A stretch of 14,081 nucleotides of DNA from Sulfurimonas sp. (GTDB taxonomy: Bacteria > Campylobacterota > Campylobacteria > Campylobacterales > Sulfurimonadaceae), in the NCBI GenBank assembly GCA_026988735.1, contig JALSKR010000169.1, forward strand, positions 1 to 14,081, given 5' to 3'. Each line of letters begins with the position of its first letter. The stretch's first letter is position 1. Position numbers and translations under genes: made by a program. The notes under the pieces are model-generated. The model was not told the origin of the DNA. It was given only the letters and a program-made list of their open reading frames with translations, and ran no database searches. This document shows positions 7,356 to 10,315 of this stretch, one piece after another.

Positions 7356-9467
7356 ATGGTAGAATATATTTTAAAACGAGACGGTTCTTACAAACAGTTT
7401 TTCGCATATAAAATAGAAGATGCCATCAAAAAAGCTTTTTTAAGTGAAAATGTAGATTTTGACAAAGCCGTATACACAAAAGTTATACAAAGACTCGATG
7501 CCAAACGAGTTGTTGCCGTAGAAGATATACAAGACATTATAGAGCAGGAGTTGTACAAAGCAAAACAGTTTGCTGTTATGCGTTCATTTATACTCTATCG
7601 TCACCTGCATAAACTCCAAAGAGAGACTCTTTTAAGCGAAGACACAACCTATATCAACTCTACGCAGACGATAGAAGAGTATATCAGCGGGAGTGACTGG
7701 AGAATCAAAGCCAACTCCAACACAGGATACTCCAATGCAGGGCTTGTAAACAATACGGCAGGAAAGGTTATAGCAAATTACTGGCTGGACAAAGTCTACT
7801 CCAAAGAAGAAGGGTATGCACATAGAAACGGGGACTATCACATACATGACCTGGACTGTCTGACCGGCTACTGTGCCGGCTGGAGTCTGAGAGTTCTTCT
7901 GGATGAAGGATTTAACGGAGTAAGGGGGAGAGTTGAGAGTGATGCACCGCAACATTTTCGCGAAGCCCTTGGACAAATGGCAAATTTTTTGGGTATTTTA
8001 CAAAGTGAATGGGCCGGAGCACAGGCTTTTTCATCTTTTGACACATACCTTGCACCTTATCTTTTTAAGGATCAACTTTCATACAAGGAGGTAAAAAAAA
8101 ATATTCGCAGTTTCATATATAACCTTAATGTTCCTGCACGATGGGGACAATCACCTTTTACAAATATCACTATAGACTGGAATGTTCCCGATGACCTCAA
8201 AGATCAGATACCTACATGTAAGCAAGAGCATCTTTTTAAAAATATTTCAGATACTCATCTAAGATTCAAAGCGCAGCAGAGGGGTGCCTCATCCCTCATG
8301 AGTATGACATATAAACATTTTCAAAAAGAGATGCACATCATCAACAAAGCCTACTATGAGATTATGACCGAAGGGGACAAAACCGGTCAGCCTTTTACAT
8401 TTCCCATACCTACTGTCAATATTACGGAAGATTTTGACTGGTATGGAGAAAATACAGATCTGCTGTTTGAAAACACGGCAAAAATCGGCTCTTCCTATTT
8501 TCAAAATTTCATAGGAAGCCAATATAAAAGAGATAAAAACGGAAAACTTGTTGCAAACGAAGAAGCCTACAAACCGGGGCATGTCAGAAGTATGTGCTGC
8601 AGACTACAGCTTGATTTAAGAGAACTTCTTAAACGAGGCGGTGGTCTCTTTGGCAGTGCGGAGATGACTGGAAGCATCGGTGTTGTCACCATCAATATGG
8701 CAAGACTGGGATTTTTGCACAAGGGTAATATGTCAGCACTGCTGGAGCGACTTGATGAGCTAATGGAGTATGCAAAATCCACTCTGGAAAAAAAGAGGGT
8801 ATTTATTGAGGAGATGTTTGAGCGGGGTCTTTTTCCCTACACAAAAAGATATTTGAGCGGATTTAACAACCATTTCTCCACCATAGGTGTGAACGGAATG
8901 AATGAGATGATACTCAATTTTTCTAACGGAGCCTATGATATCAGCACAACACAGGGAATTGACTTTGCAACCGAAATACTCAACCATATAAGAGAAAGGA
9001 TGGTTTTGTTTCAGGAAGAAACCGGAAATCTTTACAATCTTGAGGCGACACCGGCGGAGGGAACAACCTACAGATTTGCAAAAGAAGACAAAAAAAGATA
9101 CGGGAACAAAATCATACAGGCGGGAATGGGTGAAAACATCTACTATACAAACTCATCACAGATTCCCGTCGGTCTGACGGATGATCCGTTTGAGGCACTG
9201 ACACTGCAGGATGATCTGCAGACAAAATATACCGGAGGAACTGTATTGCATCTTTATATGCAAGAGAGACTCTCTTCAGCAGAAGCTGCCCGCAAGCTTG
9301 TAAAAAATGTCATAACAAACTTCAGACTCCCCTATATTACGGTAACACCGTTGTTTAGTGTTTGTCCGAAACACGGCTATCTTTCAGGGGAGCATGAGTA
9401 CTGTCCAAAATGTGACGATGAACTGATTCATGCATATGAAAACACCCAGCAAAAAGAAGCAATGTAG
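7356..9467 (+). CDS. nrdD: Anaerobic ribonucleoside-triphosphate reductase NrdD, large chain lacking the glycyl-radical loop
   Basis: This 703-residue protein is the catalytic body of class III ribonucleotide reductase, reducing ribonucleotides to deoxyribonucleotides without oxygen. An ATP-cone regulatory domain occupies about residues 3-90. The barrel core includes GDYHIHDLDCLTGYC (159-173), PSRW-like NVPARWGQSPFTN (258-270), a conserved cysteine pair MCC (C414, C415; one may be the thiyl radical cysteine) and KRGGGLFGSAEMTGSIG (426-442). Near the end, CPKH at 670-673 and CPKC at 683-686 match the C-terminal metal site. The chain then diverges and stops 17 residues later, before the RVxGY glycyl-radical loop that normally follows. 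No other RVxGY is present in the protein. The missing loop is encoded by the next gene. The start has AAAGGAG 6 nt upstream. Confidence 0.95.
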   Translation: MVEYILKRDGSYKQFFAYKIEDAIKKAFLSENVDFDKAVYTKVIQRLDAKRVVAVEDIQDIIEQELYKAKQFAVMRSFILYRHLHKLQRETLLSEDTTYINSTQTIEEYISGSDWRIKANSNTGYSNAGLVNNTAGKVIANYWLDKVYSKEEGYAHRNGDYHIHDLDCLTGYCAGWSLRVLLDEGFNGVRGRVESDAPQHFREALGQMANFLGILQSEWAGAQAFSSFDTYLAPYLFKDQLSYKEVKKNIRSFIYNLNVPARWGQSPFTNITIDWNVPDDLKDQIPTCKQEHLFKNISDTHLRFKAQQRGASSLMSMTYKHFQKEMHIINKAYYEIMTEGDKTGQPFTFPIPTVNITEDFDWYGENTDLLFENTAKIGSSYFQNFIGSQYKRDKNGKLVANEEAYKPGHVRSMCCRLQLDLRELLKRGGGLFGSAEMTGSIGVVTINMARLGFLHKGNMSALLERLDELMEYAKSTLEKKRVFIEEMFERGLFPYTKRYLSGFNNHFSTIGVNGMNEMILNFSNGAYDISTTQGIDFATEILNHIRERMVLFQEETGNLYNLEATPAEGTTYRFAKEDKKRYGNKIIQAGMGENIYYTNSSQIPVGLTDDPFEALTLQDDLQTKYTGGTVLHLYMQERLSSAEAARKLVKNVITNFRLPYITVTPLFSVCPKHGYLSGEHEYCPKCDDELIHAYENTQQKEAM

Positions 9468-9480
9468 CATTGTAAAAAAT

Positions 9481-9487
9481 TAAGGAG
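9481..9487 (+). promoter_or_regulatory. Strong ribosome binding site for the detached glycyl-radical gene
   Basis: TAAGGAG lies 8 nt before the ATG at 9496 and 11 nt before a second ATG at 9499, favouring the first. It sits in the 28-nt gap after the nrdD stop. This supports independent translation of the small gene rather than readthrough or a frameshift, and its TAA also closes the reading frame of the small gene immediately upstream. Confidence 0.8.
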
Positions 9488-9495
9488 AAAACATT

Positions 9496-9648
9496 ATGAT
9501 GAAAAGAGATGAAATTTTAAATATAGTCAAAGAAAACCGACAAAAATGTACAGTATACACACGGGTAATGGGTTATCACAGACCTGTTGAAAGTTTCAAC
9601 ACAGGAAAAACAGGTGAACACAGAGAGCGAAAACAGTTTAAAGAATAA
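9496..9648 (+). CDS. Detached glycyl-radical C-terminal piece of NrdD, 50 residues
   Basis: This small gene encodes 50 residues. Residues 18-45 (CTVYTRVMGYHRPVESFN and onward through GKTGEHRER) match the end of NrdD proteins of the type with CPxH and CPxC zinc ligands, where a V-[YW]-[ST]-R-V-x-GY-x-RPV pattern carries the radical. RVMGY is at 23-27, so G26 would be the glycine that holds the radical after activation by NrdG. The first 17 residues (MMKRDEILNIVKENRQK) are basic and probably helical, with no counterpart I recognise in the fused protein. The frame differs from nrdD, is closed by a TAA at 9481, and has its own TAAGGAG, so it is a separate chain. I infer that it binds the large chain to rebuild the active site, as the free-standing GrcA (YfiD) does for pyruvate formate-lyase. 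It may already be catalogued as a short NrdD entry. Confidence 0.85.
   Translation: MMKRDEILNIVKENRQKCTVYTRVMGYHRPVESFNTGKTGEHRERKQFKE
9603..9606 (+). promoter_or_regulatory. Ribosome binding site deciding the nrdG start
   Basis: AGGA lies 7 nt before a GTG at 9614 and inside the small radical-loop gene. The longer in-frame option, a TTG at 9587, has no purine-rich run at a suitable distance. This favours the GTG start for nrdG. Confidence 0.55.
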
Positions 9649-10315
9649 AAAATGCATCTATGATATAAGCAAATTTTCCCATTTGGACTACCCTGATCAC
9701 CTCGCATCTATTTTCTGGTTTAGCGGATGCAATATGCGTTGTGATTTTTGTTACAACAAAGATATAGTCTTTGCAAAAGAGGGAAACTATACACTTGAAG
9801 ATGCTCTTGCATTTTTAAAAACAAGAAGAGGTCTGTTGGATGCGGTTGTTCTTTCCGGAGGAGAGGCTTCTTCTTATGAACTGACAGACTTTTGCAAAGA
9901 GATCAAAAAGCTCGGATTTCTGATAAAACTCGATACCAATGGTACAAACTACTTACATGTAAAGAGACTCATTGATTTGGATCTGCTTGATTTTGTTGCA
10001 CTTGACTACAAAGCACCACAATATAAATTTACCCAAATCACACACGCAAACAAATATCATGAGTTTAGCAAAACACTCGATCTTCTGTTGCAAAGCAACA
10101 TTGCATTTGAAGTGAGAACCACTTTACATGCAGATTTGCTCAGCAGTGATGATATCAACTTTATACTTGAGGATCTTAAAACAAAAGGGTACAGCAAAAA
10201 CTATTATATTCAAGAGTTTCTCGACACACAAAATACACTGGGAAATATGAAAAAACCTTCAAAACCCTTTGACAAATCCCTCTTACGCAGTACTTTTCCC
10301 ATAATTTGGAGATAA
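9614..10315 (+). CDS. nrdG: Anaerobic ribonucleotide reductase activating protein NrdG (radical SAM)
   Basis: This is a radical SAM activase that uses a 4Fe-4S cluster and S-adenosylmethionine to install the glycyl radical on NrdD. With the GTG start it has 233 residues. The cluster motif CNMRCDFC (CxxxCxxC) gives C39, C43 and C46. The SAM-binding SGGE run follows at about 81-84 and LDTNGT at about 106-111. The opening IYDISKFSHLDYPDHLASIFWFSGC is the usual start of this activase family, though split here only by minor changes. An in-frame TTG at 9587 would add nine residues but lacks a ribosome binding site. The gene overlaps the small radical-loop gene by 35 nt, so the two are probably translated together. 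In this organism the activase would have to act on the small chain in complex with the large one. Confidence 0.92.
   Translation: MNTESENSLKNKKCIYDISKFSHLDYPDHLASIFWFSGCNMRCDFCYNKDIVFAKEGNYTLEDALAFLKTRRGLLDAVVLSGGEASSYELTDFCKEIKKLGFLIKLDTNGTNYLHVKRLIDLDLLDFVALDYKAPQYKFTQITHANKYHEFSKTLDLLLQSNIAFEVRTTLHADLLSSDDINFILEDLKTKGYSKNYYIQEFLDTQNTLGNMKKPSKPFDKSLLRSTFPIIWR

Follow-up and report, generated by a model that had tools for sequence, protein, structure and literature searches.

A class III ribonucleotide reductase of Sulfurimonas with its glycyl-radical loop encoded by a separate small gene

In Sulfurimonas sp. (assembly GCA_026988735.1), the class III ribonucleotide reductase (RNR) is very probably a two-chain enzyme in which the radical is carried by a small second chain, judging from domain content, gene order and conservation. 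The comparative evidence strongly supports two separate chains, and it gives the same strong support to the initial annotation of this DNA, which had taken the loop to be a separate and obligatory chain. Whether the small chain also serves as an exchangeable part, replaced after oxygen cleavage and supplied by phages, is a further idea that is treated separately below.

Results

The nrdD operon in the window

The window, meaning the whole stretch of 14,081 nucleotides that was analysed, comprises positions 1-14,081 of contig JALSKR010000169.1, forward strand. The following features were located in it.

7356..9467, plus strand: nrdD body, 703 aa, with ATP-cone and class III RNR barrel, stop codon TAG, no glycyl-radical loop
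8592..8603, plus strand: MCCR codons (residues 413-416), double-Cys finger-loop motif, invariant in both alignments
9402..9413, plus strand: CPKC, second half of the terminal Cys/His cluster of the large chain, followed by 17 residues
9481..9487, plus strand: TAAGGAG, putative ribosome-binding site of the small gene, read from the sequence and including the frame-closing TAA (9481-9483)
9496..9648, plus strand: small gene for a free-standing 50-aa glycyl-radical protein (PF13597 positions 529-562; PHROG 4132, E 8.9e-10)
9562..9576, plus strand: RVMGY codons, with Gly26 (9571-9573) as the radical site expected from homology to class III RNR
9614..10315, plus strand: nrdG, radical-SAM activase (TIGR02495, NrdG2-type, 179 bits, cut-off 131)

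The large chain has the features of a class III RNR apart from the loop. Its NRDD barrel was matched by PF13597 over positions 2-532 of 562 (534.8 bits) and by TIGR02487 above the cut-off (404.9 bits), the ATP-cone corresponds to PF03477, and PRK08270 was aligned over positions 2-656 of 684. The finger-loop radical cysteine is present in the MCCR motif at residues 413-416, which was invariant in alignments A2 (35 rows) and A5 (15 rows) and for which we adopted the name double-Cys finger loop from a passage of PMC9669993. C670, H673, C683 and C686 were invariant in alignment A2 (35 rows), and the activase NrdG is encoded in the same operon, as expected of this class. The glycyl-radical loop, which in a class III RNR lies on the same chain, was instead found on the 50-aa chain. 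Both the domain scan and the residue count bear out the earlier description of a 703-residue NrdD that lacks the loop and ends 17 residues past CPKC.

The small open reading frame was matched by PF13597 at positions 529-562 (E 9.1e-8, 31.6 bits, cut-off 26.2), and the loop signature occurred once in the window and in none of 200 base shuffles of it. The RVMGY motif was invariant among 33 short relatives. The small gene follows nrdD after 28 nt in a different frame, and the earlier reading of it as a separate gene with its own TAAGGAG and with RVMGY around G26 agrees with the sequence and the PF13597 match. Its frame is shut upstream by the TAA at 9481-9483, and reading through the nrdD TAG meets a TGA as the 15th codon, both as had been claimed. 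One count had to be corrected from 17 to 22, that of the residues before the R of RVMGY. The Cys pair is accordingly separated from the end of the large chain by 17 residues and RVMGY from the start of the small one by 22, compared with a spacing of 8-16 residues between Cys pair and RVMGY in fused relatives. The nrdG gene overlaps the small gene; its start was placed at GTG 9614, and the list of open reading frames gives TTG 9587. In Pfam and NCBIfam scans at E ≤ 1, the small protein matched only NRDD-type glycyl-radical families, plus a weak Pfam TEA match (0.13), and no homology to the C-terminus of pyruvate formate-lyase (PFL) was detected. Its profile had no relevant sequence match in the PDB at E ≤ 1. 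Elsewhere in the window, positions 156-758 and 748-1473 on the minus strand both resemble adenylylsulfate kinases by eye, with P-loop motifs, and the N-terminal part of the latter appears membrane-like by eye.

The genome from which the window comes is a metagenome-assembled genome (MAG) of 291 contigs that is 80% complete. Within these 80%, no third PF13597 match was found beyond the body and the small gene, nor any full-length NrdD that the small protein could back up. A second full-length nrdD, which the initial annotation had named as grounds for abandoning its reading, was therefore not found in this genome, a result that is not final at 80% completeness. A class I NrdA is also encoded.

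Conservation of the split in Campylobacterota

When Sulfurimonadaceae were searched, NRDD was present in 112 of 200 genomes, and nearly all of the matches listed had a body ending at about 529-538, a separate piece of 530-562, or both. The search for short relatives of the small protein found 2153. Across Campylobacterota, the small protein was present in 186 and NRDD in 208 of 397 genomes, while the small protein was absent from all 189 genomes that lack NRDD; each small protein among the matches listed lay within an open frame of 51-90 aa. We broke down the 208 genomes by comparing the lists by eye and searched 19 odd or multi-copy genomes again. A loop-less body of the present type occurred in 185 genomes, 182 of which also encode the small protein; it was not found in G097 and G515, where the body reaches the contig end, or in G316, which has a broken piece. 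In one further genome (G514) the small protein was present and the body was not found. In another 19 genomes (17 from genera g26 and g19, together with G440 and G408), NrdD is full-length and of another type, and the small protein is missing. The NrdD of g26 and g19 is about 25% identical in the two that were tested, and the pattern in these 17 genomes would fit a replacement of the split enzyme. Body and loop share one frame in only three genomes (G427, G330 and G258), so that the continuous nrdD frame for which relatives had to be checked is absent save for a few re-joined cases. The split arrangement is conserved order-wide rather than peculiar to this genome, and it is also found in Pseudomonadota.

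Body trees with midpoint rooting placed the fused Campylobacterota within the split ones with good support, and joining, or repeated splitting, appears from these sequences to have happened at least twice. Since fused forms lie inside the split clade, the chemistry does not depend on the split.

Gene junctions, action in trans and selection

To describe the junctions we used 80 named loci, selected for encoding the small protein. In 76 of them the body precedes the small gene on its strand, and the small gene overlaps the body end in 24, follows it within 60 nt in 29 or within 250 nt in 18, and lies farther away in 5. Among the 71 close pairs (within 250 nt), frame offsets of 0, 1 and 2 were seen in 26, 12 and 33 cases, respectively. 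All 71 close small genes start with ATG, and 70 of them are preceded by a Shine-Dalgarno (SD)-like site, compared with 9.8% of random positions. In six genomes of 1-3 contigs each (G384, G442, G378, G357, G522 and G272), the small gene and nrdG are found together but at least 58 kb from the body; because of this distance from nrdD, the small gene must act in trans there. In G082 and G106, of another genus, nrdG lies next to the body, with the small gene at a distance of about 6 kb. At one locus (G129:C1:2259093-2260801) the NrdD body is read in two overlapping frames, with the break inside the body, beside the small gene.

The small gene is under purifying selection. For 81 host small-gene sequences (34-codon core) pN/pS was 0.10, for 8 prophage or mobile copies it was 0.18, and for two viral sets it was 0.26 and 0.31, all of which are rough values because synonymous sites are near saturation.

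These results bear on two rival explanations. A sequencing or assembly error, or gene decay, might have cut one nrdD in two, and the origin of the window from an 80% complete MAG of 291 contigs speaks for that; however, the same split occurs in hundreds of genomes, single-contig ones included, with three frame offsets, SD sites, separate loci and a pN/pS of 0.10. We regard this explanation as practically negligible, and a frameshifted gene or pseudogene was rejected on conservation, frame offsets, SD sites and selection. The earlier argument that a single-base error does not account for the break is reinforced by the conservation of the split in hundreds of genomes, at all frame offsets and with SD sites. 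Alternatively, one fused chain might be made by stop read-through or programmed frameshifting, as could be imagined for the 26 of 71 close pairs in which both genes share a frame, often with just one stop codon separating them. The other 45 pairs are out of frame, however, three stop codons are used, the small gene has its own SD site and lone copies exist, and in the six genomes with at least 58 kb between the genes neither read-through nor frameshifting could join them. Recoding of this kind is extremely unlikely, and we rejected it on the out-of-frame pairs, the own SD site, the distant genes and the lone copies.

Fold model of the tethered chains

For modelling we used a close relative (L033, nrdD 97% identical) as one tethered chain in which the stop was read through as a modelling device. 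While a first, shallower fold (40 rows) gave a tail with pLDDT below 50, the tethered fold of L033 had a pLDDT of 80.0 and a pTM of 0.77, with the helix and strand of the small chain at about 90 pLDDT and the loop region at 63-71. The fold matched class III RNR structures first: the 21 leading VIA rows were all class III RNRs, followed by other glycyl radical enzymes. Of these class III chains, 16 aligned to residue 742 or beyond, into the small-chain part, and 5 stopped at residue 664-665. The model is consistent with a small chain that would complete the barrel, and it is weak evidence for binding because the tether forces proximity.

Extra copies in genomes, and copies in viruses and on plasmids

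Among the 19 genomes searched again, nine encode a single NrdD body together with two or three small genes, namely three in G272, G397 and G508 and two in G131, G509, G417, G388, G362 and G394. Several of the extra copies lie amid phage genes, such as those for tail fibre (L150, L151), Mu-type transposase (L156) and tail protein (L162), and the copy in G388 is the same protein as that of the IMG/VR provirus L192; the copy at L159 (G417) has no clear phage appearance. As for additional bodies, the second nrdD copy of G407 is broken into two overlapping frames (G407:C1:1341154-1342862), and the second copies in G193, G519 and G047 look like assembly pieces, weak tandem copies or remnants.

Two scans of IMG/VR, the second keeping 80 of 200 relatives, gave at least 117 distinct contigs with the small protein. 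No NrdD body was detected in 115 of 117, and 112 had the short protein with neither an NrdD body nor an NrdG relative in the fetched DNA, although most IMG/VR records are fragments, so that absence of the body there is no proof. The body was present in two contigs (L198 and L232). The 84 contigs that had been fetched in part were searched as whole records, with the loop in 83 and an NrdD body in one (L232); for the remaining 33, the fetched DNA covered all or almost all of the contig. Single contigs deviated: L192 and L323 lack a body but have RCMGY in place of RVMGY, L196 had no PF13597 match at E ≤ 0.001, L204 had an additional weak PF13597 match (15 bits) within a frame of 368 aa, and L265 encodes the same short protein within a long open frame. 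Phage-type genes stood beside the small gene at 14 of 18 loci tested, and the genes tested at L157, L204, L218 and L230 had no phage-family match. Seven contigs (L221-L224, L233-L235) share the same neighbours around the small gene, one of which, in L221, is a head-tail adaptor. The viral family corresponds to PHROG 4132 (3 of 5 proteins tested), which is catalogued as of unknown function. Carrying a host-type part without the rest of the enzyme, as these loci do, is what characterizes a phage auxiliary metabolic gene. Proviruses and uncultured contigs supply nearly all of the phage evidence, and most of them have no completeness estimate; from cultured phages, three small-protein queries matched 3 of 50,697 records (ANMV-1, MT835493 and MT836281).

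Several viral sequences are unusual in other respects. ANMV-1 (L242, 3692-4126) encodes a free-standing protein of 144 aa with both the Cys pair and the glycyl loop, so its break point differs, and no NrdD body was found in the 8 kb fetched. The gut phage MT835493.1 (L253, 4042-6438) encodes an NrdD with the loop in the same chain, followed by a C-terminal stretch that resembles a glutaredoxin/thioredoxin domain by eye. In five virus contigs (L227 at 10001-10105, L229, L230, L231 and L236) an in-frame TGA stands at the conserved Gly of NxGK, and L236 has it at two positions. All five proteins are intact when TGA is translated as Gly (table 25), and the hosts of these viruses may therefore be SR1/Gracilibacteria-type bacteria.

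Plasmids also carry the split. We opened 15 of 28 matching records and found 10 clear splits, one split with a two-frame body, one lone small gene and three fused forms. The clear splits are those of Cupriavidus necator H16, C. metallidurans CH34, Paracoccus, Sulfuricurvum, Bradyrhizobium, Cereibacter, Aquabacterium, Azospira, Sulfuricystis and Shinella, and the split occurs on alpha- and betaproteobacterial plasmids. The Thiothrix plasmid has the small gene and nrdG with a body read in two frames, pAt1 of Allochromatium tepidum (L247, 2460-2645) has a lone small gene with no body or nrdG within 6 kb, and fused NrdD is found on plasmids of Acidithiobacillus, Acidiphilium and Actinomyces. With a mixed NrdD profile built mostly from split members, none of the best 120 of 8000 scored matches had RVxGY in the last 80 residues. 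The split form on pHG1 of C. necator H16 has a small gene for 66 aa and a large chain of 676 aa with a computed mass of 76.2 kDa, and Siedow in 1999 reportedly described an NrdD of 76.2 kDa. According to a passage of PMC2864759, nrdDG of H16 is essential for complete denitrification, which together with the split on pHG1 indicates that the split enzyme works in a cell. We infer that the number skipped in that passage is the H16 small gene.

Discussion

In the two-chain enzyme that we propose, the large chain would supply the ATP-cone and the barrel as well as the MCCR finger loop, and the 50-residue chain would supply the last strand, the radical loop and the helix at the C-terminus. NrdG, made from the same operon, would generate the glycyl radical at Gly26, and the small chain, docked in the large one, would pass the radical on to the active-site Cys. 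Oxygen cleaves such a chain at the radical glycine, so a cell could discard the cleaved 50-residue chain and bind a fresh one without remaking the 703-residue enzyme. Phages and mobile elements carrying extra copies may in this way keep the host enzyme working during infection.

We give about an even chance to the exchange after oxygen cleavage and to the role of phage and mobile copies in sustaining the host enzyme. Extra copies, and phage copies without an NrdD body, are what replacement after oxygen damage would predict. The broadest form of the idea, in which the radical carrier is a universal exchangeable part, hosts accept copies from another locus, a prophage or a phage, and the phage copy is a spare after oxygen cleavage, could equally well prove right or wrong. 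A different role of the phage copies is conceivable, since they might poison the host enzyme, act as decoys that compete for NrdG, or be passengers without a role. They are more variable, with pN/pS of 0.26-0.31 at sites near saturation, and L192 and L323 have the RCMGY variant of the loop; nevertheless, the phage copies keep the loop, the Arg/Cys before the loop and the NxGK...E tail, and are under purifying selection, which makes such roles rather unlikely.

The closest known parallel to the proposed two-chain enzyme is GrcA/YfiD together with Y06I of phage T4, the spare parts of PFL, which, as far as the source describes them, are likewise small free-standing glycyl-radical proteins and phage-borne too. 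The idea of replacing a cleaved loop is common to both systems: in the part of PMC8683613 on PFL, oxygen cleaves at the radical glycine and a small protein can replace the tail. The small chain here, in contrast, is the PF13597 tail, belongs to another family and has no loop-bearing full-length partner. It might still be a mere repair part like GrcA/YfiD, with the large chain working otherwise, and the extra and phage copies do resemble spare parts. Yet the split-type large chain never has a loop, whereas PFL has its own, and at least one small gene accompanies the loop-less body in 182 of 185 genomes; a repair function only is very unlikely and was rejected on these two grounds. The same source states that the leftover strand of PFL is in the way of replacement and that trimming has been proposed. 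In the two-chain RNR, the small chain holds both the strand and the loop, and by that account no prior trimming would be needed.

Within RNRs, the enzyme is nearest to the NrdD/NrdG double-Cys (MCCR) lineage of the PRK08270 type, with which it shares the barrel, ATP-cone, MCCR, Cys cluster and adjoining NrdG. In the NrdD described in the passages of PMC9669993 and PMC9531940, the radical domain is the C-terminus of NrdD, whereas here it is a separate and sometimes unlinked gene. RNR chains in two pieces are also known from the class II NrdJa/NrdJb of Pseudomonas aeruginosa (PMC4520616), which is of another class, and from split or intron-broken phage RNR genes (PMC3653736), where the break is elsewhere; in neither, as far as these sources describe them, is the radical carrier a separate exchangeable protein. 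Our literature search found no description of a separate or phage-borne NrdD radical subunit, and Siedow 1999 and Wei 2014 may mention one.

The split would represent a natural enzyme whose oxygen-destroyed radical piece is a separate, apparently exchangeable protein. According to PMC8683613, PFL is the one enzyme with validated spare parts, and others may exist; if the present reading is true, this is the first such system outside PFL among the glycyl radical enzymes. It offers a concrete candidate spare-part family in hundreds of genomes, including that of the genetically tractable Cupriavidus necator H16. For annotation, loop-less NrdD bodies should not be taken for pseudogenes. If true, the reading would also give a function to phrog_4132, a viral family listed as of unknown function, and would explain 'nrdD' fragments in phages without any ribonucleotide reductase.
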